This document shows positions 219 to 27,331 of a stretch of DNA of 64,000 nucleotides, piece after piece. The translations under genes and the position numbers were made by a program. The notes beneath the pieces were generated by a model that saw only the letters and a list, made by a program, of their open reading frames with translations, was not told the DNA's origin and searched no databases. The stretch lies in NCBI RefSeq assembly GCF_964355755.1, contig NC_092677.1, positions 12,856,601 to 12,920,600 of the forward strand. Direction: 5' to 3'. Within the stretch, counting starts at the first letter, position 1; each line of letters begins with the position of its first letter. Source of the stretch: Antedon mediterranea (Eukaryota; Echinodermata; Crinoidea; Comatulida; Antedonidae).

Positions 219-2438
219 CTGAAGTGAATTGAATATAGCAAATAAGTATTGAAAGAACAACGTGTCTTTGTTAAACGTGATCAAACCGAATACCCATGTT
301 AGTCCGAATATAGGCAGTAAAACTACGGCTGCGCGTAACGTACGTCTGTGTAGATACAAATACATGGAAAACGGTAAACATTTACAAAGGTAGATAAAAT
401 GCTCATTTTATCTGAAAAAAAGTATTCTCATAAACATTTTGACTTTTGTCTCCACTTTACCAGTGGACAGAGTGTGAATTGGTCAGTCTTGACGTAAAAG
501 TCCGTCCAGATTTCGTATGATATAAACGCGAAGTAACGAACCAAATGTTTGTCTGGTCCAAAGTAAAAGGTTTTAAACACGCCCCCATATCTTGCTCTCT
601 CTACTTTATTTCAAATAAATCAAACTTTTACCGTATTTGTTCTCTTTTTGGCTTCGACTTGATTGACTTCACATTAGTGAATGTCTTTAGGACAATTGCA
701 ATAAACATTGTATTTAACTGAAAGAAAAACACAATGTAACTGTCATGTTAACAGGTTATTATAACATGCAATAAAACGCTCAAAATATAATAAGTATAGT
801 ACATTCTTGTAGGCGTATAAAAACATTTTACGGTTAATTATTTAAATGTTCGAAAGTTAAAGAAAATTGTCCCGGAATTCTGTTGGCAATTTATCCTACT
901 CATAGTCAATGTGTATATTTAATGCGAAGCATTAGTTACAACGTCACTCAACTATTGACCAATCAGAGGTCAAATCCATACATACCGATATAATGGCTAT
1001 AACTGGGGCAATAAAGGCCCAGACTGTGCCCTTATCAATGGCCAGCCAACATGCAGTATCCGTACCGTAGCCCTCAAGTCTTACAGCCATGGTTATAATC
1101 ACTATGATTGCAGGAACTCCTATCAAATAGATACTGGATATCAGAAAATAAAATATATGTACACAAAATGTCCTATTACTTAGTACCTATTATAAAAGGA
1201 CACATTTGAGACCCAGCAAATTTTCGATTAAATAGGAGTTTCCCTTGAATTGGAATGTCCCAGAGGAGAGGTTCTACTTCTAGATAAAAACATAAAGCGG
1301 CTAAAACAACCGTTTAAATGCAATGTTATCGCTATACTTTTGCAAGATAAAAAAATGCTTACCCCATCCTATTGGGTAGTAAACATTGAAATGTCTCTTC
1401 GATCGTTGATTCAAATTGCGTACTTTACTGTACATATGCATCGCTTCCACCGCCATCCACATGAACACCACAAGGAAGAAATAATGCATGAAAATGGCGA
1501 TACCAGTGCACACATTCTGAACGGGAAAAAGTGTAAAGGAAATTTTAATTACTTTAATATACATTTGCGGAACTATGGTATCATCCCAAAAATATGTTAT
1601 ATACTGGGATTATTTTAATTAACTTAATTGTCATCTATTATACATATTTATTTGATATGCGCTTACTTTATCATCGGTTTGCTCGATTCCAAATAGAAAC
1701 AATGAATCTGCTATTATCAAGGCGATCACGAGGTTGATGTGAATCGACGTGCATTCATAATTCAATCGTCTGAAACGACAATATCATTATCAGCAATAAT
1801 AATATTGATGATGATAAATGATGACGATGATGTTGATACCATGGAGGAAAGTTATACCTGATTGTGGTATTATCAAGTTACATGTTCCTTAATTAAAGTT
1901 ACAATTTCAATAGACAATTTCCAAGGACATTATGGAAATTACTAAATTTAGACAATATTTACCTAATACTTGGGGAAAACGATCAAATTTATATCACACG
2001 TTACCTACACATTATCTAAATTGGATTGTTGTCTTTAGGTCCACCATGTAATTAAGCTAATAGATTTTAAGTGTCTTCAATATTAGTATCTATAGCAACT
2101 TAATAGTTTGAACATTGGAAGTATCATTTTACAATTTTATTTTTCAATGAGCTAATTCATCGGGGTTTAGTAAAAGAGTTCATTTTCTTTATTATTTGCA
2201 TTAGTTCTGCTAAAGCTTGGTTTCCACTAGGACGCAATGCAAGGACGTAAGCGTAAAGTAGAAGAATTGTCGCTTGTGATTGGTCAACTCACTTTCGTTG
2301 CTATTCATACTAATATCAATATGCCACTTACTTGAAGTAAACTATCATTATAATAAGAGTTATAATTAAAGCGAATAAAGACAGTGAAAGTCCAACGTAT
2401 GTTATTATACTCAATGCGGCCTCATTCACATCACCAAT
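219..2438 (-). CDS. Gene A exons 17-22: seven-transmembrane domain
   Basis: Exons 2332-2438 (TM1, NEAALSIITYVGLSLSLFAL), 1667-1769 (TM2, SIHINLVIALIIADSLFLFG), 1363-1516 (TM3, GIAIFMHYFFLVVFMWMAVE), 986-1119 (TM4, GWGVPAIIVIITMAVR, and the extracellular loop Cys in TACWLA), 632-717 (TM5 and the basic third loop), 219-345 (TM6 FGLTWVFGL and the start of TM7). These are standard family-B2 motifs; the TM3 and loop-2 cysteines of the conserved disulfide are present (NVCTG, TACWL). The rest of TM7 and the cytoplasmic tail lie outside the window. Confidence 0.93.
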
Positions 2439-5400
2439 CTAAAATAAATGAAATCACATATATATCTTAATATACAACTATTTTGTACATGATTTATGGC
2501 GTGTCTCGGACTGGTTTGCGTATCTACGCAAACGATAGGCGTTTTTTGCATAATACGCAATATAATCACCAATTGATTCGAACTAGGTCCTATAGGAAAA
2601 TAGGCCTAAGCGCTTTACCGGATAGGAATACCACTATTATTAAATACAAATATATATTATAACTTAAAATAAAAGATTAAAAAAAATATGACAGGTAAGT
2701 TAGGCCTACTCTACCTGTACATCAGTGGCTTGTAGAAGAATAGAAAAGCTGGTTAAGTGGTAACAGTGACACGTGGTATGGGTTCGATTCACTTTACTGA
2801 CATTGCATCCATCTGATGACCACACCCCTTCTGCTGAGTACCTGAATGTTATTGATAATATTGGGTACGCTTGTTAAATCAATACAAAAGTTCATAATGA
2901 GACAATATGATTCTGTTCTCTTATATCCTGCAACCATCTTTTAGTTTAGATTAACAAGAAATGTCAATTCATAAAGAGATCTTGTCATTTTCTTTTATAT
3001 TTAAAAGGTGAAAACACAACTTTGTACAAAAGCAAAATATCAAGATTAAACACGAACGAAAATAGCAAGATACTTCTATAACGTGTTACAAAATAAATAA
3101 ACACATACAGTTAAAATACATGTTTATGAGTTATCTTACGTTTCGTTGTATTTCCAATAAACACAATGAGTTCCTGATTCTGTTGCATCCTACGTAAAAA
3201 TGATTTTAAAAATCTCGATTAAACTTGTTATTAATATAAGAAATGAATACAATGTTGTATTAAATCAGCCAACAACAATCTTCTTGATACAAAGCAACAA
3301 AAAGACGACGCGCGCGTACAAATCGCATTGTTATCCGTATTTGTACACGCTGGTATTGTCTCTGATGATAGTATGGTAAATGTATAATATTGTATTTAAT
3401 ATCCGGGCCAATATGGAAATAAAAGATGATTGTAATTTAATATTATACTTAATGATAATCATAATAGTATTTTTTGTTAGTAGGTTTGAAAGAATATTGC
3501 ATCGAATATAAATTATTCTTTACCTGATCCAAGTTTTCGAACACAATTTCTATAGGTTCGTCAAAAATCAATGGTTCTTCATTATCCAACTGAACAGTGA
3601 TAGATATCATCCGTCCGTTTACAGTGTACGTTTCATTCCTACAAATTGTACAATTTTAATAAAGGTTTGAATGGGTAAATATCATCATTAATCATCTTGT
3701 TTGTCTACTGTGCATAAATATAGCAAATGGTAGAGCATAGGTTATTAAACTCTGTTCATTCTATTCATTTTCACCAATATTGAGATGGATTTCTGTTTTA
3801 TTTGATAACTGCTATTATCATCATTTTATAATTTGGCATAGTTCATCCTATCTATCCTAACTGTATGATCAGAGAGATGTGCTGGTATGATAAAACTAAA
3901 TGGTAACGTAATGTAAGAATGTTTTTGTTTAACATAGCTAATCAGTATGCCATCAAAAATATAAAGTGTATGGTATGACTCACTCTTCTCCTGTTTCCAG
4001 TAACGCATTAAGATTATGACCAAACTCTGAATATATGACGTGAGATATCGCAATATCATCTTTAAAACAAGTGAAAATTAAAAATAAAATTCATAAAAAA
4101 ATATCAACGTAATAAAACCAGAACAAGATTATTTGAACGTAAAACTTAAATTCTTTAAACGATGCCTAGATGGAAACCATGTATATAACAGTAACCTGTA
4201 AAGTTGTCTGCAACAGCCGTTTTGGGAATGTCAACGCGCACTTGATTTGCTTGATGAACCGAGCCTTCGTACACCAACCCATTATCTACCGATATTATCA
4301 CATCTAAAAGTTGAAAAATTTGATATAATTAAAACAACGATTTTGTAAAGATACTTAACAAATGAAACATTCAGTGCAGTGAGTGTGTTCGTCTAAAACT
4401 GAAAGAACAACAATTCAGCATCAACAATAATATTCAGCAACAACAAGTTAGCAACAATACTATTCAGCAACAACAGCAATTCAGCAACAACAAGTTAGCA
4501 ACAATAATACTCAGCAATAACAACAATTCACCAACAACAGCAATTCACCAACAACAGCAATTCACCAACAACAGCAATTCACCAACTAAACAACAAATTA
4601 GCAACAATAATACTCAACAATAACAACAATTCACCAACAATAATTCACCAACAACAGCAATTCACCAGCAACAATTCAACAACAAAAAGAATTCAGCAAC
4701 AACAATTTTCAGTAAACAAAAACAATTCAGCAACAACTCGAGATGTGGACATACTTACCAAATCCAACACACGACGCAGTGATTGTGATGGTCTCATTCG
4801 AAGCGTCTTTGATACTATTTGCCAAAAGTGATACCGTATCCTCAATTTCGTATATCAAAGTACTTAAATCATCAGAGGAACTCTTAGAGAAAACAAACAA
4901 TACTTCTCTTTATATTTATATACTTTTTTTGACTGTCTGCCAAATATCTGTTTTATTGTTTCTCTGTTCATTTCCGTTTAATCGTAATGGCAATTCGATT
5001 TTTACTTGTCGTTAACTTACTCGTTACTTATTTGAATTTCGTTTTTTTCCATTCTAGATGATAATTTAAAACACGATTTTATATAATAATAAGAAAATAA
5101 GAAATATAAAGAAAGAAACATTACCGTATCTGTTTCATTTACTATTGAATCGAAGTCATCAACAACATCCTGGAAAGCCAAAAAATGCCTTTTATTGTAT
5201 CGTATTCTTTTAGAAAGACTAACTTGATATTAACAAAATAATGTCGCCACTTACTTCAAGCATAAATTGTGTTCATTCTTTATATTACACAGTTTTCAAT
5301 GTTTATTGATTGATAACAGAAAGACCAGACAATATCTAAAGTGTAGTTTGAAGTCAATGATTTTTTTCAAATAAAGTTTTCATGAACATCAATGCAGTAA

Positions 5401-8400
5401 GAATTAATGCAGTAAGAGATAAAAAAAAGAAATATTGAAATATCGAATACGAAACCACTTCTAATACCAACTTCTTCCCAATTAAGTGTAATATTAACTT
5501 CCAATTTTTTTCAACTATTATAAAAGAAATATATCACAACTGAACCTCAACAAACTCAGTCTTCTCATGTTTGCTTCTAAGCTCAGAAGGTGGTTTATCC
5601 GCAATCTTGTTCTTCACCTCCATAGTTGATTCTTTTATCTTTTCATGCTCGTTCATTTTACTATCATCTGGTCTGGTGCCATTATTACCAGGAGGGGCTG
5701 AAAAAATTAATATGACCACGACAGTCACATTATTTTAATGATTTCATGCACAGCCTCATACCTGCTATGCATTATACAACAACAACATACGGTACCCCGC
5801 ACAAAACAAACTTACGTGTTACACTTCCACTAATATTATCAGTATGCAACGGTGGGTCTCGTGAGCTTGGTGGTGGTGGTGGTGGTGGGGATTGGTAATT
5901 GGTCGGTGGTTGGTGGCTGGCATGTGGTTGGTGGTAGTTTGTGATGGCTGTTAATCTTTTCTCTGTAGTAGTTTCGTCTTCTTGATCACCCGCAATAATT
6001 GTACCAAACGTCATGCCAACAGACGAGTATACGCCAACGTTCTTGTACGATCCTGCAATAAATTTGTCAATGATATTCGCAAATTCGAGAAGAACTTGCG
6101 TGGAACTAAAAGAATATTAGAAGGATGCAAGAAATATGGATTACTCTATAGTCTAAATAATAATAGACCGCTTCCGGTGTCATTCAGCCGATTTTCAGTA
6201 CTTGATCTATAATTTGAACAATTATCATGGGCAAATGCTGTGATACAGTGTCACATATGACGCCTACCATCGGCAATAAGCCCTAACGATAACATACCAT
6301 AATACAGCCCCGCATGTGATATTTTCATATGGACATAATATAATACAGATAATGGATTGATTGTCATTTAATTAATTAAATTTGTTTATTATACTAGTAG
6401 TGTGTTAGGTAAAAATGTCATTCATTTTCATCAAAATTAAAGAATATAATTAATCATTCATGTATTAAGTGACTAACCTGTAAAATTGGTATGAATAATA
6501 CCATCTTCACCCGTATCATTCCCTATGCCGCCCGATACATCAGTTTGCAGATGAAGATCGTCCACTTGTAAATCCAAATAAAACAATCTAATAACACCAC
6601 CTGCACCGCCTCCACCACAGTAAAAACTTTTATTTTGATGTTCGTAAGAACTAGAACCACCAGATGCATTTAGATATCCACTCTTTCCAAGTATAATCTA
6701 AACAAAATCAATAATGAATGAAATTAATAAATTATGAACTCATAGATACCGCATTTTAAAAATGTATGTAAGATTTTAAAATGTTAACAGTAATTGGTTT
6801 GTATTTGAACTTTTGGTACATGTTACTTTGCAATATTTTGTTCCTATTTTCAGAATGTTTACTAAGAGACCAGGCCTAAATAGCCTATACAGTAACCGAT
6901 GGCACGGAACTATATTTTTTATGTCCAATATATAGGAAAATTCTGTGACGTGACACAGGAACATTTATTTACAATAGCTTTTGGCAGGAAACAAATTATT
7001 TAAATATAAAAGATTTTATTTTTACAGAAAAGACACACACACACACACATCGATCTTACTGTGTCTGCTATTAGTTGTATCATACCGCCGCTACCGCCAC
7101 CTTTACAATTAACATAATCTTCAATTTGGCCATTCTCGCCGTTAGCACTCAATGAAGAATCTTTATTAAATATAAATAAACAAAATATAATTGTTTAGGC
7201 CTATTCATAATATAAAGTAATTTATTAACTAATTTATCTTTAATCAATCCGTTACTTGAATTCCACTAAAAAGAGAGGAAAAGGAGAGTGAAATAGAAAC
7301 AGGCTAAGAGAGTGGGAAGAGAGATAGAAAGAAAAGGGAAGGAAAGACAAACATATTACATTTACAAACTTACCGATGAAAATGGAATTGCTGGCTGTTA
7401 TTTGCATAGCTCCGCCACCACGTAATCTATTATGTGTATATAGACCTTCGCTTGAACCTTCGCCTGCTGTTGATGTACCTTGCTCGGACCATTCTCCTCC
7501 TTTAAAACAAAGTTTGCATAATTTGTTGTACTTTTTAGCTTTCATTGCAGTAGTTAATCCATTAATAGTTGATTTTAACTATACATATACTATAAACTCA
7601 CCAGCGCTTCCTCCAATTAACGTTTGAGTATAAGCGTATTCAGCACCATATACGTACGATACACTACCGTCAATATACGAGAAACTGGCGCCACCGGTTC
7701 CACCAAAGCCTCCCCCAGACGGAATGTTAGCCAGAAACAACGGGTCACCGGAAGCACCGCCTTCACCTGGACCACCATATTCACCTTTTAAGCGATAAAA
7801 TATTATATGATAAATTGTTAAACTTATTTTTTGTTTTGGACCAACAAAAAAATGGTGCTGGTAGGCTCGGCTGAACTACAGTTTGCGTCGTTTTCCATAC
7901 AGCTGTATTAAAATAAAAGTTCATTTTATATTTTGCTTTCTTTTGTTCTATAAATCACATTTTAATCACAGTGATGAAAGTTAATTTAAATACATTCTAC
8001 CAGACTGAGTGAACAGCAATACTTGGTATTAACACGATAAAACATTATTATTTCACAATGTCTTTAACAATTACTAGTTTAATAGCAAATCAAGGTGTAT
8101 TTTGTCGACTTGGAATAAAGATATTTTTGGAAAAAAGATAATTTCTAATCATACCTCCATAACCGCCAGCATAGTTATCGTCATTGTCGCCATTTTCTCC
8201 ATTTATATTTATAGTAACACTGATAGAAATGTTACCATTCACGTCAAACATGAACGCGTTAGGTCCTATAACTTGTATGTCCAAATCGTCACTAAACTTT
8301 ACTGATTCTGTCATGTAAAAAACCGCAATCAGGTTTTGCCATTCGCGAGAATATTCGTCAACGAAAACAGTGTTTTCGAAAAACCCATTACATTTTGAGA

Positions 8401-11400
8401 TGATTCGTACAGCATAGCCACCTTCAACGTACATTTCTTCAATGTATGTTTGGTTTAGAATACATCCGGTGGTGACATTAACAGCACATGGTAAAAATGA
8501 TGAATTGTTGGTATCATATATTAGTGATTCATTTGATAGTGATGATTCATTTGATATGTCCAAATACCAAATGACGGGGCAATCTGTGTCCACAACAAGA
8601 ACACCATTCGTTATTTCATGGAAATCTAAAAATAAAATAAGACCAATGTTGTATTGAGAAACGGCAAAATAGAATTCAATGAAGATGAAAAGACATTCAA
8701 TAAGAGTAAAAGTTTATATCACGAGCAACGTTTCTTAAAACAGGGCATAAACAAACATTTATTTTATTTCAATTGCATCCAATAGCGTGGAGCCAATTAT
8801 AAATAATAATATATAAAAAACAAATATAACAAGATTAAAATGGAAACATTCACATTATTTTAACATTGGCCTATAGCGTTTGTGCAATTTGATGTATTTT
8901 TCTTGTTGTTTTCTTTTATTGGCTGAATTATTTCAATTTTAAGTGGACCAATACACTTTTTGGAATCTTGAATCTTGGATTAAACATTGGAGCAAAATAC
9001 ACAGACTAAATGACCGACCGAAATATTTGCTTATTAAATTATCGTAGGCCTATTTTAATAACGATGATTAATTCGTTGTTATTCTGAATACGCCTGTTCT
9101 TGTTTAAACACGGTAATTTGGTTATTTTATATTATATTATACTGAATGCTTGCCTTAATTGCGGTTAATAGCTTACAAATCATATTTTTAAATTAAACAT
9201 TTTTTATTACGTCGTAATATCAAATTTTAACTACAAGGAAAAATATAACTTCCTTAATTAATTTACCCTATATTGTACGTATTTTGCATTCGATTTTTAT
9301 TAACAACATTCCTGGAGTGGATTGCCTAGATACAATGAATTAATTCGCGATGATTGGTTTGATGAATTAAATAGCTTAATATTTTCCGATTCTGTAATAA
9401 CATAAAAAGACCATATTAGTTAAAAGTCATCATCGAATAGAAATTTACCGCCTTTCATAGAACGTTTTCTAAAATTGAACCTAATTACTTGTATTAAGAC
9501 AATCACTCAAATTTGATGTGGAATTTAAAGGCGCGTTCACACCGAATCTAAAATATTTCAAGCCACATCGGTTGCGGCGTATGTCACCGTTGAGGCAAAT
9601 ATGAGACAATGTATTTGTAGGCAAAAGTAAGCAAAACGCCTGCGAAGCACAAAAAAACCCCACTTGTTTGAAGCTTTGCTCTTTAGTCTGAACGATAAAA
9701 ACACATGTAAATCACATTGTAATAATTAATTTACATATTATAAATTTAGGTGTCTGAACGTAGCTTATATGAACACATGAAAACTGAATATAGCTGCGAA
9801 AAAACGCACTCCATTATAGAAGAAGTAAACTAAAAAAAGTAACATAGTATGCGCCATTTAAGCCGGTTTTCGACTAGACAAATTTATTCGCGCGCAAATA
9901 AAAAATGTTCATTAATGCGCATGCGTATTAATATTTTTGTGACGTTGAAAAATGAGCGACCAATCATAACTAATGTTAATAGAATAGAAAATAGAATTCA
10001 ATGAAGATGAAAAGACATTCAATAAGAGTAAAAGTTTATATCACGAGCAACGTTTCTTAAAACAGGGCATAAACAAACATTTATTTTATTTCAATTGCAT
10101 CCAATAGCGTGGAGCCAATTATAAATAATAATATATAAAAAACAAATATAACAAGATTAAAATGGAAACATTCACATTATTTTAACATTGGCCTATAGCG
10201 TTTGTGCAATTTGATGTATTTTTCTTGTTGTTTTCTTTTATTGGCTGAATTATTTCAATTTTAAGTGGAGCAATACACTTTTTGGAATCTTGAATCTTGG
10301 ATTAAACATTGGAGCAAAATACACAGACTAAATGACCGACCGAAATATTTGCTTATTAAATTATCGTAGGCCTATTTTAATAACGATGATTAATTCGTTG
10401 TTATTCTGAATACGCCTGTTCTTGTTTAAACACGGTAATTTGGTTATTTTATATTATATTATACTGAATGCTTGGCTTAATTGCGGTTAATAATTTACAA
10501 ATCATATTTTTAAATTAAACATTTTTTATTACGTCGTAATATCAAATTTTAACTACAAGGAAAAATATAACTTCCTTAATTAATTTACCCTATATTGTAC
10601 GTATTTTGCATTCGATTTTTATTAACAACATTCCTGGAGTGGATTGCCTAGATACAATGAATTAATTCGCGATGATTGGTTTGATGAAATAAATAGCTTA
10701 ATATTTTCCGATTCTGTAATAACATAAAAAGACCATATTAGTTAAAAGTCATCATCGAATAGAAATTTACCGCCTTTCATAGAACGTTTTCTAAAATTGA
10801 ACCTAATTACTTGTATTAAGACAATCACTCAAATTTGATGTGGAATTTAAAGGCGCGTTCACACCGAATCTAAAATATTTCAAGCCACATCGGTTGCGGC
10901 GTATGTCACCGTTGAGGCAAATATGAGACAATGTATTTGTAGGCAAAAGTAAGCAAAACGCCTGCGAAGCACAAAAAAAACCCCACTTGTTTGAAGCTTT
11001 GCTCTTTAGTCTGAACGATAAAAACACATGTAAATCACATTGTAATAATTAATTTACATATTATAAATTTAGGTGTCTGAACGTAGCTTATATGAACACA
11101 TGAAAACTGAATATAGCTGCGAAAAAACGCACTCCATTATAGAAGAAGTAAACTAAAAAAAGTAACATAGTATGCGCCATTTAAGCCGGTTTTCGACTAG
11201 ACAAATTTATTCGCGCGCAAATAAAAAATGTTCATTAATGCGCATGCGTATTAATATTTTTGTGACGTTGAAAAATGAGCGACCAATCATAACTAATGTT
11301 CAATTCGCGCGAATAAATTCGGTAACGGAAAACAGGCTTTACGTGTATCTGACGCACGCACCCATACACAAAAGTCATTTATCAAAAGTCTGGACTTGGC

Positions 11401-15036: not shown

Positions 15037-15239
15037 CCCCTCTTTTGCCATCAATACAACGGTGCATAATATAAAGAAGAAGCCTATAGACCACCTTCAA
15101 ATTGATTTTCAGTACACATACTACTGTTCGGTAGTCGCAGGAGCAACTTTAAAATATATAAGATATTAAATGTTAATAAATAATGGATAATAAATATAAA
15201 TTACAATTATGGAAAATTAAATTTACTATAAAAATGTTA

Positions 15240-15300
15240 CTCCGAATAAAGTGGGGCAAGCCATTGTCATTCACTATGACTTGTCTTACTTTATTCGGAG
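15240..15300 (+). ncRNA. Candidate RNA hairpin (pre-miRNA-like or transposon remnant)
   Basis: Arms 15240-15260 and 15280-15300 pair along all 21 bases if transcribed on the plus strand, using three G-U wobbles; three further pairs follow one mismatch. A T run (15304-15312) follows. On the minus strand the wobbles become A-C mismatches. Function unknown. Confidence 0.4.
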
Positions 15301-15316
15301 GGCTTTTTTTTTATTA

Positions 15317-15421
15317 TCATATTAAAATAATAATTGTTATACATGTAAATACAAAATACATTGTGATGCAAATTAGGTCGAGGCTACCTTTTGTGCTTCT
15401 TGTAGTATCAGTCGGTTCGCT
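15317..15421 (-). CDS. Tentative last coding exon of gene B
   Basis: After donor GTAAGATT at 16038 the frame needs a phase-0 acceptor. At 15422-15423 a pyrimidine-rich acceptor ending TTTATTTGTAG opens SEPTDTTRSTKGSLDLI, then a hydrophobic run and TGA at 15319-15317. A minus-strand AATAAA follows directly (15310-15315). The tail would be short with an oddly hydrophobic end. Reading through the 16038 donor instead gives about 28 more codons before a stop near 15950. The exact tail is uncertain. Confidence 0.4.
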   Translation of the reverse strand, partial: SEPTDTTRSTKGSLDLICITMYFVFTCITIIILI

Positions 15422-16168
15422 CTACAAATAAAATCAAGAGAAGGTAAGTAAGTTTATATGAGATTCAATACTACTTAAGCTGCTCAGTTTCACTTTGACG
15501 TGTCGCGACGCACGGACGTACTTAAAACTGTATTTGGTTCCCACAGAGACGCAACGCAAGGACGTAAACGCAACACAAGCGAATTGACCAATCACATGCG
15601 ACTGTTCGATTAATCCATCGCTTGTGATTGAGCCAATCACTGTACGTTGCGTTGCGTCGTAGTAGTAGGAACAAAGCTTGAGTGCAACTCAAGTAATTTG
15701 ACAAATCACGACGCGATGGGTTGCCGAACTATCAGTTGTGATTAGTCAACTCGCCTGCGAGCCTTGCGCCTACGTCGTTGCGTCGCGTCCAAGTGGACAC
15801 CAACGTGCATGTCTCATTATGAATTCTTTGTGTTACACAATTTTATATCTTAACTCTATAAACCGCACATGATGATTTTTAGATTTAATATTTAAGCAAC
15901 CTGCTCTCCTACGACCTGTGAATGTGATCACATCAATTAGGTTTCTTAAACCGCATTAGTTTTTGTTTCCATATTGCACACTTGCACAGACATTAAATAA
16001 TTAGTTGTCGCTTCCATTGTAATTACATATAATCTTACCGATGAAGTATTGTCGACCTTCATGCAACGACGAAAAAGAATGTTCTTAATTTGGCCATTAA
16101 GACAGCAATGAAATAAGAAGATAAAGAAACCCTAGAATGAAAGAATAATTAAATTCTCGAGTAAAGAT

Positions 16169-16210
<42 letters not shown>

Positions 16211-19200
16211 AGCTTCTTCTTCTACCAGAAAGTCTATATAGGGCCTTGGCCTATCAGGTAAATCAGGTACCTCCCGGCTATATTAACAAACATCGTATCC
16301 AACATTAAAAAAGGATCTAATGATATTGACAAAGAAACATTATAAGTAAGTCTGATTTATGTGTACATTGTGCGCATGCAAGATGCGATTATTTTACTAA
16401 ATATGTTAAATAAGTTACTTAGCCTATGCCATACACGAACAAAATTTCATTTTATAATTAGACGGATTTTTAAAAAGGCATTAGGCATAATTAAGTATAT
16501 GACTACAATGTTTTATAGGCACGTGTTACATTATATCACTGTTAGAATTTTCACAACGTTTTACGTTAAAAACAAATAAATATTAAATTTGAATTAACAA
16601 TACATGACACACTAGGTAATACAAGAGGCTCACCTGCAGTGAATTACATATAGCAAACAGGTACTGAAGGAATAACGTCTGTTGGCTAAGAGCAAGTAAA
16701 CCGAACACCCAAGTTAATCCGAATACAGGCAGTAAAACTGCGGCTGCGCGTAAAGTACGGCTGTATGGATATATAGAAAAAAAAGTTAAATTACGACGGC
16801 GGGTCAAAAATTATGATCCTGATCCTCACTCGATTATCGGTACTGTATCTCTCCTAGTATCATCGATAATTCTACAATATAGCATCACATGTGTTCCACA
16901 TGTATCGCCTATCATTGTGATACTAGAAAAATATTGTCGTACGTGGAGATACAGCAATGAAAATCGAGTAATGAAGTCGCATTAAAGTTGTCCTATTCTT
17001 ATGTTGTTTTAATATCATGATTACCGTGTTTGTTCTCTTAGTGGTTTCGACTTGACTGACTTCACACTGGTAAATGTCTTTAGGACAATTACCATAATTG
17101 TTGTATTTAGCTGCAAAATAAATATACTGTCATTGAAAAATAAATCGTTTCAATGCGCACTAAAAATGGAAAAGTTTATATATTCATAACATAACATAAC
17201 TATTGACCAATCAAAGGCCAACTACTTTGCAGTTTAAACGGGACAATACCGCCCTCAATAATACTACTGAGATACAAGCGATATATTGTACATAGGTAGG
17301 CCTGTACATACCATAATAATTGTTATCACTGGGCCAATAAACGCCCAAATAGTGCCTTTGTCGGCGGCCAGCCAGCATGCAGTATCCGTACCATAGCCTT
17401 CGAGTCTTACAGCCATGGTTACAATCACTATGATGGCAGGAATTCCTGTAAAATAGGTACAGTACTAAATTATGAAAAAATATTATTTGCAAATGTCATT
17501 ATTTTATGTTATTTCAGTAAGATGGATTTTAGAAAAAACGGAAGGCTAATTCTAGGAGCTGAGGCACATTGTAATGTATTTAAAAAGTCATACAATCACC
17601 CCGCTATGTCAGCAGAGTAAACTGTTTTGTTATTATTTTCACAAGCTACTCTACACAGGTAAGGTAAATTTCGATAGACAGCTTACCCCATCCTATCGGG
17701 TAGTAAACATGGAACTTTCTCCTAGATCGGCCATGAGTCAAGTTGCGTACTTTACTGTACATATGCATCGCTTCCACCGCCATCCACATGAACACCACAA
17801 GGAAGAAATAATGCATGAAAATGGCGATACCAGTGCACACATTCTGAACGGGAAAAAGTATATATCTAAATGTAAACATCCCCATAACAGGTGGTGGTAA
17901 CAATCTAGGCCTACACAGGGACATTCCTTATTTCATAATTCATTCAATAAAAATACTATATAAGCTTACTTTATTTTTAGTTAGCTCGATTCCAAATAGA
18001 AACAATGAATCTGCTATTATCAAGGCGATCACGAGGTTGATGTGAATCGACGTGCATTCATAATTCAATCGTCTGAAACGACAATAATAATATTGATGAT
18101 AATGATGATGATGATGATACTGATGGTACTGATGATAATGATAATAAGGAGGAGGAAAAATTATACGAATGTGTTGTGGTTAATCTTCATATCAATTTAC
18201 ATAGACATTAGTTGAAGTTAAAATTTCAATAGACAATAATTAATGACAATTACAAAATTTAGACAATATTTACCTAATACTTAAGAAATAGATTAGTCTT
18301 TCATTACACAATAATTAACACGTTACCCTATATCGAAATTAAATTATTGCCCTTAGGTCAACAATGCACTAAAAGCCTACAGCCTATTAGATGCAAAGTG
18401 ATCATTTTACCATTAAACCCGTTTTCCACTTGTCAAATCTATCCGAAAGCGTTGACCAATGAAAATGCGTATTTATATACTTTTTGTGACGCGATAAATT
18501 GCGCAACCAATCAGAACTCATGAATGCTCGATTCGCACGAATATAATTATATACGTAGTCGAGCCCTATTAAACAAACTTACTTGAAGTAAACTATCATT
18601 ACAATAAGAGTTGTAATCAAGGAGAATAAAGACAGTGAAAGTCCAACGTATGTTATTATACTCAATGCGGCCTCATTCACATCACCAATCTAAAAAACAA
18701 TACATACAAAATATACTTTCAATTTAAAAACTTAAAGATGTATTGTCCCTTTAAACACAAAAAAATGAAGGTCAAAATATTCTAAATATAAATTGGCCAT
18801 ATCAAAGTAATATTAAAGTTATTCAGTTTAAGTTGAAAGTTCGAGCCAAAAGCAAGAAATCATCGCGAGCGAAAGTAAACAAAGATTTCAAACCACGAGT
18901 ATGCATTATGCATATGCTAATTAAGATTGTTTACAACTCGTCATGGTTGAGGTGTTTTCACACAGATCGCGAGGAAGTTTTAGGATTATGCATACAGAGT
19001 AGCCAAACAAGCGCGTTGCATTATAAGATATGTTTTGATCGAAAACTTTGACTGGAAGTCAAAATTATTTTTTAAACAAAAAAACGTCTGTATTTCAATT
19101 AAATGATTTTTTTTTCGACAAATTTTTGGTGAAAGTTAATAACTATTATGATACTTCAAAATGACCCACTTTTTGTCGAAATATTTTATTTTTCATTTTT

Positions 19201-22200
19201 TTGGAATTCGACAAAGGGACAATACATCTTTATAATTATGTAGGCCTAACTTCTGTTGGTGTTATTTTTAGCCTATCTGTGCATGTAACGCTAGTTTGTG
19301 GCGTGATGTAGGCTTAATTGCTAATGAGTCGAAATAGGCGGCCTATAAAATACCGACAAAAAAAGACAGAATATACCTCTACATCATCAGCGGCTTGTAG
19401 AAGAATAGAGAAGCTGGTTAGGTGGTAACAGTGACACGTGGTATAGGTTCGATTCACTTCACTGACATTGCATCCGTCTGATGACCACACCCCTCCTGCT
19501 GAGTACCTAACAATTGTATTAATAGTACGCTTATAAGTCAATAATTGCAGGTGATGATTGTACATTGCATAGTCCGTTCCATAGTTCTTATCCAATGAGA
19601 AGCATTCTAATATAGACACCGGTTTGTGTCTTTAGGAGGGCCCGCGTCACTATAGTAAACGTTATGCTAAGCATTTAGATCTGCTGTGCACTTTCTAATT
19701 ATATAATAGACCTAAGTCAGAAATGTAGTTAAACTACTTGACGTGTTTATGGATTTTCTTACGTTTCGTTGAATTTCCAGTAGACACAGTGCGTCCTTGA
19801 TGTAGTTGCATTCTACGTAAAAAATATTTTAAATAGTTTTCAAACCATTGTGTATAAAAGAGCATAAGACTAGAGTTTGTATATTTTTGGCTAAAAAAAT
19901 ATGAGTACCCATCAAAACGATCGCAGTTAAACTGGGAAAGTTTGACTTAACCAATTTAAATTAATGATAATTTAAATAGTAATATATAAAAAAACATTAT
20001 TCTTTACCTGATTAAGGTTTTCAAACACAATTTCTATAGGTTCGTCAAAAATCAGTGGTTGATCCTTATACACCTTAACAGTGATAGATATTATCCGTCC
20101 GTTTACACTATAAATCTCATCCCTAAAATATATATACAGAAGCAAATTCTGAGAAATGGAGATTACAAATCTAGACTTTTATGTTATTTGGTTTTAACAA
20201 CTGAAGCCTGTTTTCCACTTGACGAAGTCATTCACGCGAATGTAAACTTTTGGCAAATACGCATGCGTATTTATACTACAGCCAATCACAGATCAGGAAA
20301 CTTTCGACTACCGTGAATAGTATTCGCCAGTGAAAAACAGGCTTAAATCTTTAACTTTTATCCTTCTTTTAAAGCTATAGCTACTTACATTTTTCTCAGG
20401 ATTTAAGTTATTGTTATTAAGTTATTGTTATTCTCTAAGAAGTAATATTGAAATAACTGTCTTGACTTACTCTTTTCCTGTTTCCAGGGATGCGTTTAGA
20501 ATAGCATCAAATTCAGAATATATGACATAAGAAATCGCAATATGACCTTTCGTAGGAAAATGAAGTAGAATTGTTAACGTTTTCAATTTTTTATTTTTTA
20601 AAATTTTTGTGGTTAACTAACCACCTTTATTTATTCAATGTTACATAAACAACAATTACAGAATCTCACATATATTTACATTATTTTCTGCATATTTTTT
20701 GTTATGTTATCTATTACAAAATATATTGCATGTTTAATAAAAAAGTTGTTTAGTTATGAAACGTTTGTTAACTTATTTATCATCATCGTTTTCAATTTTC
20801 AATTAATTTAATTCAAAATAACATTTATTTACTTCCTTTTAAGATTTAAACAATAGGCCCTATTGGAATAAATAGAAATTAACATGGACAAATAACAAAA
20901 AACCTAAGGAAAAGGGGGATCCTAGAAAGATAGCGGATCTTAAGTTGGGTCTGCCTCGGACACAAAACCAATGGACAAACAAGGGGAACAAATCAAACAG
21001 AAAACAACCAGGACATCAAACACTATGGATTCCGACTAAGTAACCAATAAGAAAGAAGGGATGGGAAATGCAAAAGTGAATTAATATTAATAGCAAAGTG
21101 TTTTTTAGCTTATTAGAAAACGAATATTTGTTGACAGCGCTAATTATATTTGGAGGTACAAAATTACCAAAATTGGACCAGTAAATCTCTTATGTTGAAA
21201 ATAGTTAGTTTTATGAGGGGGTATAAAATTATCAAATCTATTTCGTGTGCGGTGATTCTTTAACAATATATAGTGCGTGACGAAACGAAATAGCATATAT
21301 AAGCTCGCGTCACTAAGGGCACAACCTCTGATCCATGACATAAATCTTACTAATAAATGAAAAATAAAGCTTATACTTTACAAAAGTATTCATAACATAC
21401 GAAATCTATTTGCTATAATCGCCTTGGGAACGTTGACTGCAACTTGGTTGGAATTAACAGTTGAGCCATCATACGTATATCTACTATCTATCTGTATTAT
21501 CACATCTGAAATTAAGGTAAAAAGTAATATTCTTTCTCTTCCCAAAAACAACGGAAATATCACACGCAGGTTAGGCCTATACTAATACAGAACAGAAATA
21601 CGGTAGTAAAGTACAGGTAAGTCAGACCTACAACGTGTACGTATCATTGGAATTGAGCAGAGCTCTATTAAATCTGTTTTTGAAAAGCGATTGATTATAA
21701 GAAAACACATTCTATATTTCAAGATTCTAATCATCCCATGCATAATGTATTTGAGGTGTTACGTAGCGGTAAACGTTACCGGCCCATCATTTTTCGTACA
21801 AATAGGTTTCGTGACAGCTTTTATCCAGTTGCCGTTCTAGCAGTGATGTTACACTTTGAATTGTAATTGTTTTTTTATTTTTTTATTTGTATATTTTTTT
21901 CAGAGCAAACATAATTTCTATGTATAATTTATATGCAAATGACCAATAAATGGAACTACTTTTACACTGATGAACTGTCATTCCCAGTCTAAGGCTTCTC
22001 TGATGTATTTTGCCAAGTAGGCCTAAGTATAATAATAAGTGATACGAAGGCAAGGAACTTACCAAATAAAACACTTGATGCATTGAGTAAGATCCTATCG
22101 TTATCATATTTAGAAAAAGCTTTCCGCACCCTTACTGCTAAAAGTGATGAAATGTTATCAACATCGTTAATCAAAGTACTCAATTCCCAAGAACTCTAAA

Positions 22201-25200
22201 AGAAATAGTGAACAAAAACAATTAGGTTTCATTGTAACAAATAATGTTTGTATTTATTGTATCAAAAAGATTGAAGACTGTAGACGTCGTTGATATAATA
22301 AAACCTCTATTAAGGCTGGGGCACCTTCATGGCCCATCAATATCCCCCCTAAATGAAGGATGTCCCATAAATACCGGATTGGCGTATTAATATTCCGCTC
22401 ATCGTTTCATAAAAAATTGTCCTCGATAATAGGGATGTCCCAAAAGGAGGTGTTTAACTGAATGCAAGAATGACGAACCCGTAAAATTAATTAAATGTTA
22501 ACCTCAACAAGAAAATATGAAGAAAGAAAATATTACCATATCTGTCTGATTTATTATAATTGGATTGAAGTCATCAACAACGTCCTAAAAAAAAAAAATT
22601 TACAATGATTTATATATATAATGATTTATATTATCACATTAGGCAATTGAACATTAATTCGAAACCGCCCGGTGATATACTGAAATTTAATTAATTAATT
22701 TGAAATGATTTATATTATTATATATATAATTGTAAAAGCGTTGTTTCCGTTACAATTTAAAAGAAAGTACAAATAATAAACACTTTTCGATTAGAGGACA
22801 CAACAACGACTGAAATTATTCATTATGTAGGCCTTGTGAACTAAAAACATAATTATGAAATAAAGTTAAAACTTTTTAACGAACCGTAACAAATATTTCT
22901 ATCTCATTATCTTCTTTAAGTTGAGAAAGCAGTTTCGTTGAAATCTTTTCCTTTATTTCTTCTATACTTGTCAGTTCATCTGAAATAAACATTATACTGT
23001 CATGCGTAAAGCCTGTTTTCCGCTACGTGAATATATTCGCGTGTGTGCGAATAAATCGTTGACTAATGCAAATGGATGCGTATTCACATTTTCATCTACT
23101 TTTTGTGACGTGAATAAACAATACGCAACCGGCCAATCAGAACACAAGAATGTTTGAGAACATATTTCCTAATGGAAAATAGGATTTAAGTCACTTAAAA
23201 CAGTCTCTAATGCTACTCTTTCTTTAACCTACTACCTTTGTGAAGTCTAACTAGAGCTCACCTTCGGTTATATTTTGGCTGGTAAATTCACCACTCCGAC
23301 CAAAAGAACCCCCTGCGCCGCCTCTGACGTCAGCGTGTAAATTGATATCTTTAACTTGTAAATCCCAGGAAAGCAATCTGATAACTCCACCTGCCCCGCC
23401 CCCACCACAGTAGCTAGTCAGATTTGGCACGAACGAGCTAACACCACCAACTGCGGTTAGATAAGCACTCCTTCCTAATATAATCTAAATTTAAGAAATA
23501 CATTATGCAATCTGTTAAATAGGAACAAATGATGATTGATTTTTTCACAAATTGATAATTTTTATTAGCAAAATCATATGCCCGTTTTTCTACTGAGCAA
23601 GATGTTTTTATTAATTAATTTTAAATTAAAGAGAACAGTATTTTCTTGCCAACAGAAACAGGTCTACATGAACAAAATTATATTTTGATTCCAGTGTTGA
23701 TCGTCTAATAAACGGAATCTGGGAAGCAATTTTTAGCTAACAAAAACGCGATATTTTTTTTTATGAAACAGTTCTTCAGAAATAGAAACTGTTCCTTACT
23801 GTATTTGCGATAACTTGTATCATTCCGCCACTACCACCACCCATAGTGTCCGCTCTTGATTCTATAATGAGTCCGCCCTGACCATCAGCAGTCATTGAAG
23901 AATCTTTAAATAAAGCATGCTAATAGCTATAGAGTACTAAGGATCTGATTAACGTTATACACATTAGGCCTACAGCATGGAAAATAAAAATGACCTGATT
24001 TTTTTTTTTTTATTTCATATTTATATTAATACAAACAAACACAAATTTAAAAGAAAAGACCTTAAAAAATAACCTATATGAATCAAAAAGACGCTATGAC
24101 AACACAAACAATCAAAAAGAGCTTAATAAAATAAAAAAATGACCAGAATGGTCTGGGGAGAATTCAAACTACATTTGAAAAATATCCGTGTTCCATCCTG
24201 AGGGGAGTACCATTGGCAGTCATTTATAAACGCAGCGCAAGCGATGGATGAACTGTCATTGGTCAACTTCATCTCTTTTACAAAATTTGTATTTTTAGGC
24301 CCAACATATAACACGAATTTGTTCACAGATAACATTATGAAAGGAGCAAAGATACAACATAGGCCTACTTACTGATAAAAATAAAATTACTACTGGATCT
24401 GAATTCCATAGCCCCGCCTCCACGTCCTTTATATATGCGCGGGTTATCGCTCCATTCTCCACCTAAAAACAATAACACAAACATGTGTACATCATGGCAC
24501 ATGTGTACATCATGGCACATGTGTACATGGCACATCATGACACTGGCACGTCATGTAGGTCTACTTTATGGCACGTCATGTGTACATCATCATGTGTACA
24601 TAATGGCACAACATGCATCATGGCACGACATGTGTACATCATCATGGCACATCAAATCACGCGTGTACATCCTGGCACAACATGTGTACATCATTGCACG
24701 TAATGAACTTCATGGTACGACATGTGCACATCATGGTACAACATGTGTACATCATGGCACAACATATGACATGTACATCATGGCACGTAATGTACTTCAT
24801 GGCACGTCATGTGTACATCATGGCACGTTATGTGTACATCATGTGACATCATGTGTACATCATGGAACAACATGTGTACATAATGGCACAACATGTGTAC
24901 ATCATGGCACAACATGTGTACAGCATAGCACAACATGTATACATCATGGCACATCATGTACTTCATGGCACCTTATGTGTACATCATGTGACATCATGTG
25001 TACATCATGGCACAACATGTGTACATAATGGCACGTCATGTGTACATCATGGCACAACATGTATACATCATTGCACAACATGTGTTCATCATGGCACATC
25101 AATATATATTATATTTCTGTTTATTCTTTTTTTTTAAAATTGTGATGATGCAGCAGATATTTCGTGTTGTTATTGTTGGCTAATACTTGCTGTTTTGATG

Positions 25201-27331
25201 TATGCTATATAAAAGTGTTTTTGTTCTGTTTAAAAATAATTAATACGCAGTGATTCGTGTATTTGTTTCACCTTCCTCCGTCACATTACTTAATAATTAA
25301 ATAATTCGAGCTTGCTTCTTAGTTTTATGTAAATTATCATGTAAAAGCATTGTTAATTAATACTGATACACAATAAATGAGGGCTTATTATTTTGTTGTG
25401 TTTGTGTATACAACCGTGTATCGATAGTTATAGTGCCGTTCCACCCAACTGTTTGCCTGCTGAACATGTCTTTGTCATGTCATGTCATTAATTATTATGG
25501 TAACTCACCAGCGCTTCCACCAATTAAGGTTTTAGTGTAAGAGTATATTCCGCCATACATAACACCTGTACTGAAACTCCTGAAATTCCTTCCTCCAAAC
25601 GAACCAAACCCCCCACCACCTGGATCGAGACGGGTGTTCCTTCTATAATGACCACCTGCTCCGGGACCACCAAATTTAGCTTTAATAAGAGACCAATAAA
25701 AGATTGATTTAAAATCAAGTAGATTTAGCTTGTATTTATCGGTGCTGTATCTCCACGTATGACAATGTTTGTCCAGTATCATAGGAACATTTCGTAATAC
25801 AGCAACTCATGTGAATCACATAAAGGTTTTGATCTATATGACATTAGCGATATTTGTGAAGAAACATATAGGCCTATATATAATATAATAACAATAAATA
25901 TATAATGCTATATCAGGATATTTTCCTATATTTTTGTGGAGGATTTGTTTTTTTAAAATATAATAAAAATAAATATAGATAATACTGACTCTTTTGTCGA
26001 TTAAGATTTTTTAAAGATAGCTTCTAAAATACCTCCATAACCGCCAGCATAGTTCTTGTCGTTTCTGCCGCCATTTTCTCCATTTATATTTATAGGAACA
26101 CTGATTGAAATGTTACCACTCACGTCAAACCTGAACGAGTTTTGTCCTATAACGTGTATTTCCAAATCTCCATATAATTTCACGGATACATTAAAGAAAA
26201 ACACAGCAACAGAGTTTTCCCATTCCCTATCATATTCATCGAGGAAAACTGTGTATTCGAAGGAACCATTGCATTTTGAGATCATCCGTCCATCTGATAT
26301 ATTTCCAATATATGTTTGGTTAAATGATGGTGAATATGTGGTGTTTTCAGTGACCATCTCAACGCATGAACATGGCAAACAGGTTGAGGCATTAATGTGG
26401 CTCGATGCGTTTGAGTTTTGCAAATACCAAATAGCAGGGTAATCTGTATCCACTATAAGAATACCACTCGCTGTCTCGTAAAAATCTGAAAAAGTACACG
26501 TGAAAGAATGTAATATAATAATAAAAACCCCAATTTAGAAGATACCATCGGGACCCAGCAAAGTGTTCCCTAATGGGCATGTCTCCTGAATAGAGTGTTT
26601 CAAAGGAAGTGGGTTGATAACCATAAGTAAATTAGAAACACGAAGCGAACTATGTACTTGAAACCCCCCCCCCCCCCAAAAAAAAACAAACAATGGAGGT
26701 GAAAGGAAACATCATCAGGAAATATGATTGTATAATAGAGAAATTACGCAATTCGGTTTCTTAAATGAGATTTGATGAAAAAGCAAAATGGGTTACTCAC
26801 CATCTGGTGGTTCATCAAAATAACTTTGAACGATTACAATCTAGAAATCGAAATAAAGTATAAAATTAGTTATTGGGACAAAATAAATTGGCGAAGTGAT
26901 GACAGAAACAAGATAAAAAGTGTTGAACAATTACCTGTTTTAGGCGAATTTGTTCGTGCGAAACGCAATCGTTGACTATTTACTATTTATATTTTCATCT
27001 ATTTTCGTGACGTAAACAAAATGCGCAACCAATCATAACTCAGGAATGTTCGATTCGCGCCAATATATTCGCTATAGCAAACAGGCGTTGTATTGCTTCG
27101 TAGAAATTGAATGTTGAAAATACATTAGTATGCTAATTAGCAAACAGGTGTAAGGATACGTAATCATGTAAATAATTAGTCGACTAATTTAAATTGCATT
27201 TTCACCTAATGATTTCCTGTTTTGTAACATTATGACTATAATATGACGAATGTGAAATAAACTTACGTTAGAAATCATACAAAGGCCTACTATTATAAGA
27301 TAAAATACGGTAATCTTCATCATATTAATGT
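15317..27331 (-). CDS. Adhesion G-protein-coupled receptor, gene B (tandem paralogue)
   Basis: Second receptor, same strand and exon order as gene A. Coding exons: 27267-27323 (ATG at 27323; exon to 27331), 26801-26840, 26033-26485, 25509-25679, 24373-24462, 23800-23903, 23262-23484, 22885-22979, 22537-22584, 22063-22195, 21401-21505, 20471-20546, 20008-20122, 19763-19812, 19377-19506, 18583-18689, 17970-18072, 17687-17843, 17312-17445, 17025-17110, 16634-16760, 16039-16131, and a tentative last exon 15317-15421. Through 16039 the exons total 2697 nt = 899 codons in one open frame; with the last exon, 933 codons. Every exon except the tail has a gene A partner, and length changes are multiples of three. 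Ligand and subfamily unknown. Confidence 0.9.
15534..15806. mobile_element. Inverted-repeat element(s), GACGCAACGCAAGGACG family
   Basis: Left end TTGGTTCCCACAGAGACG and right end CGTCCAAGTGGACACCAA are related inverted repeats, and GACGCAACGCAAGGACGTA recurs inverted near 15770. An internal boundary near 15680 (GTAGGAACAAAGCTT) suggests two elements joined or nested. Lies between the last two exons of gene B. Confidence 0.6.
16039..18689 (-). CDS. Gene B seven-transmembrane exons and start of the tail
   Basis: Exons 18583-18689, 17970-18072, 17687-17843, 17312-17445, 17025-17110, 16634-16760 and 16039-16131. Motifs: FGLTWVFGLL (TM6), LQYLFAICNSLQ joined to GFFIFLFHCCL (TM7 and the start of helix 8), then NGQIKNILFRRC. 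Exon 17687-17843 is three bases longer than in gene A. The join between 16634 and 16131 is phase 0 and gives the family-typical NSLQGFFIF, which strongly supports it. Confidence 0.93.
16168..16207. repeat. (AT)n microsatellite
   Basis: About 36 bases of alternating AT, some 40 bases upstream in gene B orientation from the TM7/tail exon. Confidence 0.95.
18416..18570. mobile_element. MITE, AGCCTGTTTTCC family, degraded copy
   Basis: Left end AACCCGTTTTCCACTTG after TTA, internal TTTTTGTGACG and GCGCAACCAATCAGAACTC shared with 23010-23186 and 26934-27087. The right end is eroded next to the TM1 exon of gene B. Confidence 0.55.
19377..22979 (-). CDS. Gene B exons 8-15: GAIN-like region and GPS
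   Basis: Exons 22885-22979, 22537-22584, 22063-22195, 21401-21505, 20471-20546, 20008-20122, 19763-19812, 19377-19506. The last holds GVWSSDGCNVSEVNRTYTT followed by CHCYHLTSFSIL, with the predicted cleavage between L616 and T617. Exon 22885-22979 is 57 bases shorter than its gene A partner, and no Pro-rich exon precedes it. Several introns here hold short inverted-repeat elements. Confidence 0.88.
20205..20343. mobile_element. MITE, AGCCTGTTTTCC family
   Basis: 139 bp between AGCCTGTTTTCCACTTG and GAAAAACAGGCT, flanked by TGA and TAA. Lies in the gene B intron after exon 20008-20122. Internal GCATGCGTATTTATA matches other copies. Confidence 0.7.
20810..21345 (-). mobile_element. LINE 3' fragment, minus strand
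   Basis: Minus-strand 21120-21300 reads HRTRNRFDNFIPPHKTNYF, then QHKRFTGPI, and after a frame shift NFVPPNIISAVN. This is the C terminus of a CR1/L2-like reverse transcriptase ORF with a frameshift. The non-coding tail extends down to about 20810. In a gene B intron. Confidence 0.75.
23010..23186. mobile_element. MITE, AGCCTGTTTTCC family
   Basis: 177 bp with ends AGCCTGTTTTCCGC and GGAAAATAGGATT, flanked by TAA on each side (23007-23009, 23187-23189). Lies at the position where gene A carries its extra Pro-rich exon. Confidence 0.7.
23262..27331 (-). CDS. Gene B exons 1-7: signal peptide and Gly-rich ectodomain
   Basis: Signal exon MMKITVFYLIIVGLCMISN (27267-27323), then 26801-26840, then the 151-codon sequon-rich exon 26033-26485 ending ISISVPININGENGG and YAGGYGG, then 25509-25679, 24373-24462, 23800-23903 and 23262-23484. 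The Gly patterns match gene A (for example GGRGAMEFRSS, GGSGGMIQVIANT and CGGGGAGGVIRL), but sequence between them has diverged and exons differ by 3 to 36 bases. Intron 2 is only 315 bp here against 3.6 kb in gene A. Confidence 0.78.
24480..25112. repeat. 21-bp minisatellite (ATGTGTACATCATGGCAC type)
   Basis: About 30 units of 21 bp, unit ATGTGTACATCATGGCAC plus three variable bases, in the gene B intron between exons 24373-24462 and 25509-25679. Because 21 is a multiple of three, long frames stay open on both strands; these are not taken as genes. Confidence 0.92.
26934..27087. mobile_element. MITE, AGCCTGTTTTCC family
   Basis: Left end CCTGTTTTAGGCGAATTTG after TTA, right end GCAAACAGGCG. 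Shares TTTTCATCTA, GTGACGTAAACAAAATGCG and CAACCAATCATAACTC with the other copies. In gene B intron 1. Confidence 0.6.

Follow-up and report, generated by a model that had tools for sequence, protein, structure and literature searches.

A stretch of 64,000 nucleotides of the Antedon mediterranea genome (NC_092677.1, 12,856,601-12,920,600; to be referred to as the window, with the positions below given within it) carries two tandem genes, A and B, for adhesion G protein-coupled receptors (GPCRs). The best explanation of the data, to which we give a probability of about 0.78, is that both are intact receptors whose N-terminal fragment carries a single Gly-rich module, found across kingdoms, uncatalogued, and having a bacterial counterpart with a predicted β-helix-like structure. 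The exon chain, the GPS, the seven-transmembrane (7TM) domain and the homology of the module are established at the level of sequence. The module is also present in bacteria, archaea and phages, yet none of the searched family libraries lists it; it thus appears to be a novel type of sensor among adhesion GPCRs and not a domain new to life.

Organization of the two receptor genes

The two genes were rebuilt from the raw sequence by a frame-by-frame comparison of their regions together with lists of splice sites, and the gap exons were placed by eye. Both are on the minus strand. Gene B occupies 27323-15946, and gene A extends from 12617 to just beyond the left edge of the window (Table 1). The order of the parts is the same in both: a signal-peptide-like exon, the Gly-rich ectodomain, the stalk and GAIN region, the GPS (with HLTSF), and the 7TM domain. 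For gene A, 19 exons give 869 residues, and 21 exons give 902 residues when the two 5′ exons, located via their similarity to gene B, are included. For gene B, 21 exons give 866 residues, to which the last TM7 exon is added. Neither assembly contains a stop. The internal exon boundaries of both genes are AG/GT, each shared exon is entered in identical phase, and the two products are 61.9% identical over 885 columns (BLASTP).

The last TM7 exon of gene A (GFFIFLFHCCFNGEIKNIF) is located about 311 bases to the left of the window edge, in the flanking stretch. Each gene thus begins with a hydrophobic leader and ends with a full 7TM domain and a short tail. The signal peptide was judged by hydropathy, computed for gene B, in whose product about 610 residues precede the cleavage site. 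A version of gene A without a signal peptide was considered and rejected, as the exon is present at 12617-12561.

The initial annotation had proposed that the exon models close in phase and that the fusion of the Gly-rich segments to the GPS and 7TM domain is real. The models do close, and at the gene-model level the Gly-rich ectodomain is fused to the GPS-7TM part in both genes, that is, in two copies, each with its own signal-peptide-like exon. The strings quoted there are present as well: GGGSGGMIQLIADT at 7101 in gene A, GGGSGGMIQVIANT at 23841 in gene B, and CGGGGAGGVIRL at 6619 in gene A and 23409 in gene B. SGYLNASGG is found in gene A, and its counterpart in gene B is SAYLTAVGG. The block of exons E1-E5 is flanked by phase-1 introns on entry and on exit in both genes, the donors after E5 being CAG/GTTAGT and AAG/GTGAGC in the two copies.

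The receptor part

Pfam finds the GPS (PF01825, above the cut-off) and the 7tm_2 domain (PF00002, with TM7 completed by the last exons) in both products (Table 1), and there is no Pfam match for GAIN in either. In a phmmer search of the Protein Data Bank (PDB), the structure nearest to the GPS-7TM part of gene B is that of ADGRD1 (E = 1e-71), and ADGRL3 has an E value of 3.7e-70. The alignments with ADGRL3 and ADGRF1 start inside the GAIN region, that of ADGRL3 from residue 123 of the 548 in the query. A weak Pfam match of the 7TM domain of gene A to Dicty_CAR (E = 6.7e-4) is under the cut-off and was rejected.

The GPS has the sequence TCHCYHLTSFSILLQ and contains HL/TSFSILL, which was read against the consensus for GPS cleavage and the tethered agonist. 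The receptor part is, in its GPS with HL/T, its tethered-agonist-like TSFSILL and its 7tm_2 domain, similar to receptors of the ADGRD1 and ADGRL type. The difference lies at the N-terminus, where ADGRD1 has a pentraxin domain and ADGRL receptors have lectin, olfactomedin and HRM domains, whereas genes A and B carry the Gly-rich module instead. The 7tm_2 exons of the genome belong to a large receptor family, because at least 160 exon matches to 7tm_2 are found in it. When the ectodomain of gene B was the genome query, all 8 matches at E≤0.01 were exons of the two genes themselves.

The Gly-rich module

The module has about 230 residues, of which about 23% are Gly. A strand pair comes first, followed by two segments, GPGAGG/GGGGFG and YGG..IGGSAGG, and then by GGGAM-strands, GGGSGG-strands and CGGGGAGG-strands. 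It had been described as a row of repeat units. Several Gly-rich segments are indeed present, but they form one module rather than a series of equal repeats.

The view that this pattern is absent from the known adhesion-GPCR domain families is borne out by the profile searches. No Pfam family is matched in the first 370 residues of A or B, and no NCBIfam entry by the ectodomain of B. In the PDB, searched by sequence, two matches of the B ectodomain (E = 0.14 and 0.63) were taken as chance, and a 38-row profile of the module has no match. The single match in PHROGs, for A at E = 0.079, is at chance level. The bacterial modules described below behave in the same manner: one of them (L041) has no match in NCBIfam, and three (L041, L034 and L035) have none in Pfam at E≤1.

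Two known Gly-rich domains resemble the module in having extracellular Gly-rich segments. One is Gly_rich_2 (PF21722), but its profile is matched neither by A and B in the Pfam scans nor by the three bacterial modules. It was rejected as the identity of the module, and an exon-by-exon scan of the whole genome at E≤1, which may miss weak matches, gave 0 matches to it. The other is the glycine-rich domain of the ALK/LTK receptors. At the level of titles and abstracts, with most subscription papers and bioRxiv preprints outside the coverage, no such adhesion-GPCR ectodomain was found described. In the passages considered from a study of the GPCRs of choanoflagellates and their kin (eLife 2025; PMC12716839), 'glycine' occurs as a reference on glycine as a ligand.

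Divergence between the two copies

The ratio of nonsynonymous to synonymous divergence (Ka/Ks) between A and B differs among the parts: E1 (0.32), E2-E5 (0.40), stalk (0.73), GAIN region (0.45), GPS (0.49) and 7TM domain (0.29). The value for E2-E5 indicates that the Gly-rich exons are maintained as protein. Ks is much lower in the GPS (0.11) and the 7TM domain (0.28) than in the upstream parts (0.64-1.01), which suggests that gene conversion has homogenized the 3′ half of the two genes.

At the DNA level (blastn), 2,311 bases of gene A align with gene B, 1,673 of them within modelled exons, and exons E3, E4, ST1, G1 and G2 are too diverged to be aligned. The longest alignment (1971-1357) is 58% outside the exons. 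Between the two copies, the TM2-TM3 intron can still be aligned. The window has 10 occurrences of a DNA pattern for GGG-x-GG, compared to a mean of 0 in 100 shuffles. Five of these occurrences are simple G/T or G/A repeats, and the other five (6597, 7085, 7700, 23387 and 23825) are in the Gly-rich exons.

Relatives in prokaryotes and viruses

The initial annotation had suggested that the module might be new as such. This is not supported, as 40 prokaryotic stretches have it too, as do 13 of 20 viral contigs and, in the animal's own genome, a giant locus. The relatives were gathered with a DNA pattern of the GGGSGGxI ... AxGG ... GGGxGGx(I/V) core, in a stricter form for genome contigs. The stricter pattern gave the 40 stretches (L029-L068) on 38 contigs, two of which contributed two each. 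The hosts are Myxococcota, Verrucomicrobia, Lentisphaerae, Planctomycetes (Phycisphaerae), Kiritimatiellae, Elusimicrobia, Bdellovibrionales, orders of Bacteroidetes, Proteobacteria, Patescibacteria, an Auribacter and one archaeon; Spongiibacter (L034) is among the bacteria concerned. Most of the open frames are, by eye, colinear with A and B well past the pattern; L039 is frameshifted and L064 is masked upstream.

A hidden Markov model (HMM) and an alignment (A2) were made from 36 of the 40 stretches, omitting L039, L055, L064 and L065, which are frameshifted, cut or second copies. A further alignment (A3) has 37 stretches, omitting L039, L046 and L064. The 36-row HMM gives scores of 70.1 bits for B and 68.1 bits for A. 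In comparison, the best of 4,000 shuffles (2,000 of the whole sequence and 2,000 in blocks of 20) reaches 5.0 bits, and the reversed sequences have scores of -16.7 and -17.4. Because the DNA pattern had selected the relatives, a second HMM was built from the up to 140 residues that precede the pattern, the half not used for the selection. It scores B at 30.1 bits and A at 12.2 bits. Shuffled sequences reach at most 7.5 bits for B and 4.4 bits for A, those shuffled in blocks stay below 0, and the reversed scores are -13.5 and -15.9.

The prokaryotic modules are colinear with that of A and B, and they are often arranged in tandem in long open frames. In four module-bearing genomes, the A3 profile has 1 to 12 matches each, often as arrays within one long frame, with six in a single frame of 3,351 residues; the Spongiibacter module (L034) is single. 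The distribution of the module is patchy even within a phylum, because a match at E≤1e-20 is found in 4 of the 96 genomes from the phylum of one of the genomes searched (G003, included in the count).

Among viruses, the DNA pattern found 20 contigs, and the motif is in an open frame in all 20. With the 36-row HMM, 13 of these frames have E≤1e-5, the best score being 46 bits (E values for 20 targets, several contigs being near copies). The presence of the module in all 20 contigs was accordingly rejected. By the measure of these scores and of the 13 frames that reach the threshold, the viral copies are more diverged. A tblastn search of phages and plasmids with the B module gave no match. A search of the viral contigs with the A/B alignment gave 113 pattern stretches and 0 confirmed, a result of little weight as both patterns are outside the Gly-rich core.

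A giant module locus in the same genome

When the Spongiibacter module was used as the query against the animal genome, 33 matches at E≤1 were found, all of them in C2:36362599-36452427. In the inspected region (36330001-36460000), the module stretches number 58, each of them on the minus strand and within C2:36350001-36460000. Grouping them yields about 30 modules, of which 14 are in a single exon, 14 are split and 4 more are partial; their frames have lengths of up to 2,069 residues. The 11 best rows have identities of 33-41% to the Spongiibacter module. Downstream are teneurin-type EGF repeats, a VWD domain (Pfam), a laminin-G-like stretch slightly under the cut-off (26 versus 27.6 bits), a transmembrane segment and a cytoplasmic tail.

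An HMM was built from 14 of the 58 stretches (above 60 bits, with at least 150 model positions). Its scores are 27.7 bits for B and 19.2 bits for A, with 4.7 as the highest value among the shuffles; bacterial modules reach up to 139 bits. The module is thus an independent extracellular domain of the animal, of which the receptor copies are the diverged ones. The module is common to the receptors and the giant locus, while the EGF, VWD, laminin-G-like and transmembrane parts belong to the latter; among the matches listed, there is none to 7tm_2 in the giant locus. In the same region (C2:36330001-36460000), the open frames extend to as many as 2,717 residues, and a reverse-transcriptase-like frame is present at 36445809-36447128.

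Predicted structure of a bacterial module

The structure of the Spongiibacter module was predicted with AlphaFold2 (AF2) from an alignment of 37 rows. The model has a mean predicted local distance difference test (pLDDT) score of 93.4 and a predicted template modelling (pTM) score of 0.92, and nearly all of it is strands. It was compared with VIA-align 2 to 109 chains from Foldseek, a comparison in which middling Z scores are common. The EtpA secretion domain has a Z score of 11.9 (3.8 Å over 175 residues), followed by the adhesin 4wa0 (10.0; 3.5 Å, 147 residues), the bactofilin 6rib (9.9; 2.5 Å, 99 residues) and Awp14 (9.6; 4.3 Å, 180 residues). Alginate and pectate lyases have Z scores of about 7-9 at 3.6-4.5 Å. 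The hexapeptide acyltransferases, which are left-handed β-helices, and their kin also have Z scores of about 7-10, but with root mean square deviations of 11-13 Å, and they were rejected as the fold.

We read the predicted structure as a right-handed-type β-helix, a compact solenoid with long and unusual Gly-rich loops, the handedness being taken from the matches. The overall fold of the bacterial homolog may be similar to those of EtpA, tapirin, bactofilin, Awp14 and the pectate and PL6 lyases; sequence identities are at most 18%, and the likeness is one of predicted fold. Three proteins are matched in BFVD at E≤0.001, one from a Bathycoccus virus and two from phages. Among the BFVD matches, proteins of giant viruses (Bathycoccus virus, Orpheovirus and Pandoravirus), some of them named collagen-like, resemble the predicted fold of the module.

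Proposed mechanism

By analogy with other adhesion GPCRs, the precursor would be cut at HL/T in the GPS. The fragment bearing the module would stay bound and may hold a ligand on a surface, such as matrix, a glycan or another solenoid-bearing protein. Pull on this fragment, or its release, would then expose the tethered agonist beginning with TSFSILL and activate the 7TM domain. In such a receptor the N-terminal fragment would most likely grip through its solenoid, with release taking place at the GAIN/GPS part.

Alternative explanations

Several results weigh against the reading of A and B as receptors with a cross-kingdom, β-helix-like module. The predicted structure is that of a bacterial homolog and not of the spliced module in the window, and the E1 exon of the window alone (two rows) has a pLDDT of 31.6. 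Foldseek finds no match in the PDB at E≤0.001 for the bacterial model, the best E value being 0.58 and the best probability 0.14. The half of A that precedes the pattern scores only 12 bits, and the reverse search is weak: an HMM from the two rows of A and B lists 12 of the 36 bacterial modules at E≤10, with a best score of 11.4 bits. The 33 matches of the Spongiibacter module in the animal genome include neither A nor B. Seven of the 20 viral frames fall short of E = 1e-5, one of them unlisted at E≤10, and the viral L025 scores -3.3 bits. Finally, the exon chain is a model made from the genomic sequence.

This last point would allow the Gly-rich exons to be a separate secreted protein beside a short adhesion GPCR, with the fusion an artefact of gene modelling. 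The stalk that joins the two parts is the least constrained region, the open frame of E5 runs into a stop soon past its donor in both copies, and a signal-peptide exon ahead of the stalk would, if unlike that of gene B, have escaped the similarity search used. Against this, the order and the phases of the exons from the signal peptide through N2, E1-E5, the stalk, the GAIN region and the GPS to the 7TM domain are equal in the two copies, both have the donor after E5, and the distance from E5 to ST1 is 780 bp in gene A and 282 bp in gene B; we consider a separate protein very unlikely. The resemblance to the bacterial modules could instead reflect low-complexity Gly composition and not descent, given the Gly content, the weakness of the two-row profile in reverse, and end-to-end searches that are empty or lack A and B among their matches. 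However, shuffles that preserve the composition stay at or below 7.5 bits, compared to 30-70 for the real B sequence, the landmarks are colinear along the module in alignment A2, and the part outside the selecting pattern matches as well. An origin of the similarity in composition is thus highly improbable.

With descent as the preferred explanation, the question is by which route the module reached the receptors. The receptors could have acquired it horizontally from a bacterium, in an event distinct from that of the giant animal locus. In the tree of the modules, A and B are beside a Lentisphaerae module (97/65), among bacteria of the PVC group, and the bacterial HMM scores them above the giant-locus HMM (the numbers of training rows differ). 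However, the tree is mostly without resolution (12 of 60 inner branches starred), the A/B branch is very long (1.97), and a single animal clade is compatible with the data (P = 0.277 in the approximately unbiased test, p-AU). Moreover, introns split the module exons, and the E3/E4 intron (phase 1) coincides by eye with that in 2 of 13 spliced giant-locus modules (GNLLLQ/GNIIVN and DLAQID/GTIQAN); a 14th module gave no compatible chain, and the coincidence may be fortuitous. We regard a separate transfer as unlikely. Phase-1 introns on both sides are typical of extracellular units that have been shuffled, and the module probably joined the receptor as one block of exons, E1-E5, prior to the tandem duplication. 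The intron positions were not accepted as proof of shuffling, with one internal intron, placed by eye, in 2 of 13 modules. As to the ligand, the receptor module might bind the like modules of the putative giant EGF/VWD membrane protein (C2 36.33-36.45 Mb). The roughly 30 module copies in one locus that ends in a transmembrane segment would favor such homotypic binding, but we hold it to be unlikely.

Other features of the window

Two open frames on the minus strand in the second intron of gene A (9481-9711 and 10803-11048) have a nearly identical stretch (WGFFCASQAFCLLL...) and are perhaps copies of a mobile element. Repeat tracts that are open in multiple frames are present at 24363-25137, 31056-31939 and 44077-44766, with CVHHGTT, GVIPEMC and SNPISMC units; the first is mostly within the E2-E3 intron of gene B. 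At 34475-35152, on the minus strand, is an open frame of 225 residues, which we take to resemble a sorting nexin of the SNX20/21 type, with PX and TPR-like parts. Open frames on the plus strand at 61681-62610 have, by eye, WD-repeat-like stretches.

Table 1. Exons of the tandem adhesion GPCR genes A and B, with positions in the window.
Feature	Positions	Strand	Support
Gene B, SP: MMKITVFYLIIVGLCMISN, hydrophobic signal-peptide-like start	27267-27323	-	hydropathy
Gene B, N2 (IVIVQSYFDEPPD), phase 1 end	26801-26840	-	
Gene B, E1: N-terminal domain; Gly-rich module begins at its end (SGNISISVPININGENGG)	26033-26485	-	
Gene B, E2, Gly-rich module	25509-25679	-	
Gene B, E3, Gly-rich module (GRGGGAMEF)	24373-24462	-	
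Gene B, E4, Gly-rich module (GGGSGGMIQVIANT)	23800-23903	-	
Gene B, E5, Gly-rich module (SAYLTAVGG ... CGGGGAGGVIRL), phase 1 end	23262-23484	-	
Gene B, stalk exons ST1 (22979-22891) and ST2 (22584-22537)	22537-22979	-	
Gene B, GAIN-region exons G1-G5 (22195-22063, 21505-21401, 20546-20471, 20122-20008, 19812-19763)	19763-22195	-	
Gene B, GPS exon, CHCYHLTSFSILLQ	19377-19506	-	Pfam GPS, E = 7e-14
Gene B, 7TM exons TM1-TM6/7 (18689-16634) and last exon (16131-15946)	15946-18689	-	Pfam 7tm_2, E = 1.1e-56
Gene A, SP: MMRIATIFHMVVGMCLVSN	12561-12617	-	
Gene A, N2 (ILIVRSYFDEPSD), phase 1 end	12261-12300	-	
Gene A, E1	8155-8625	-	
Gene A, E2, Gly-rich module	7602-7784	-	
Gene A, E3, Gly-rich module	7374-7499	-	
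Gene A, E4, Gly-rich module (GGGSGGMIQLIADT)	7060-7160	-	
Gene A, E5, Gly-rich module (SGYLNASGG ... CGGGGAGGVIRL), phase 1 end	6478-6697	-	
Gene A, stalk exons ST1 (5697-5546) and ST2 (5169-5125)	5125-5697	-	
Gene A, GAIN-region exons G1-G5 (4882-4759, 4303-4196, 4059-3984, 3638-3524, 3189-3140)	3140-4882	-	
Gene A, GPS exon (HLTSF at 2759)	2715-2841	-	Pfam GPS, E = 5.1e-14
Gene A, 7TM exons TM1-TM6/7	219-2438	-	Pfam 7tm_2, E = 1.3e-59

Significance

What an adhesion GPCR can sense depends largely on its type of extracellular domain. The module extends the list of adhesion-GPCR ectodomains, and it exposes a domain family that has been missed by annotation pipelines, being absent from the Pfam and NCBIfam scans. 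Tentatively, and with clearly less confidence than in the receptors themselves, a surface β-helix of prokaryotic type may have been captured as the sensor of an animal receptor. It would then represent a new class of adhesion-GPCR ectodomain, which would recognize surfaces of microbes or matrix, or else pair with the like modules of the putative giant protein. The two genes offer a concrete case for a general question, how a bacterial-type adhesive solenoid may be coupled to a tethered agonist.

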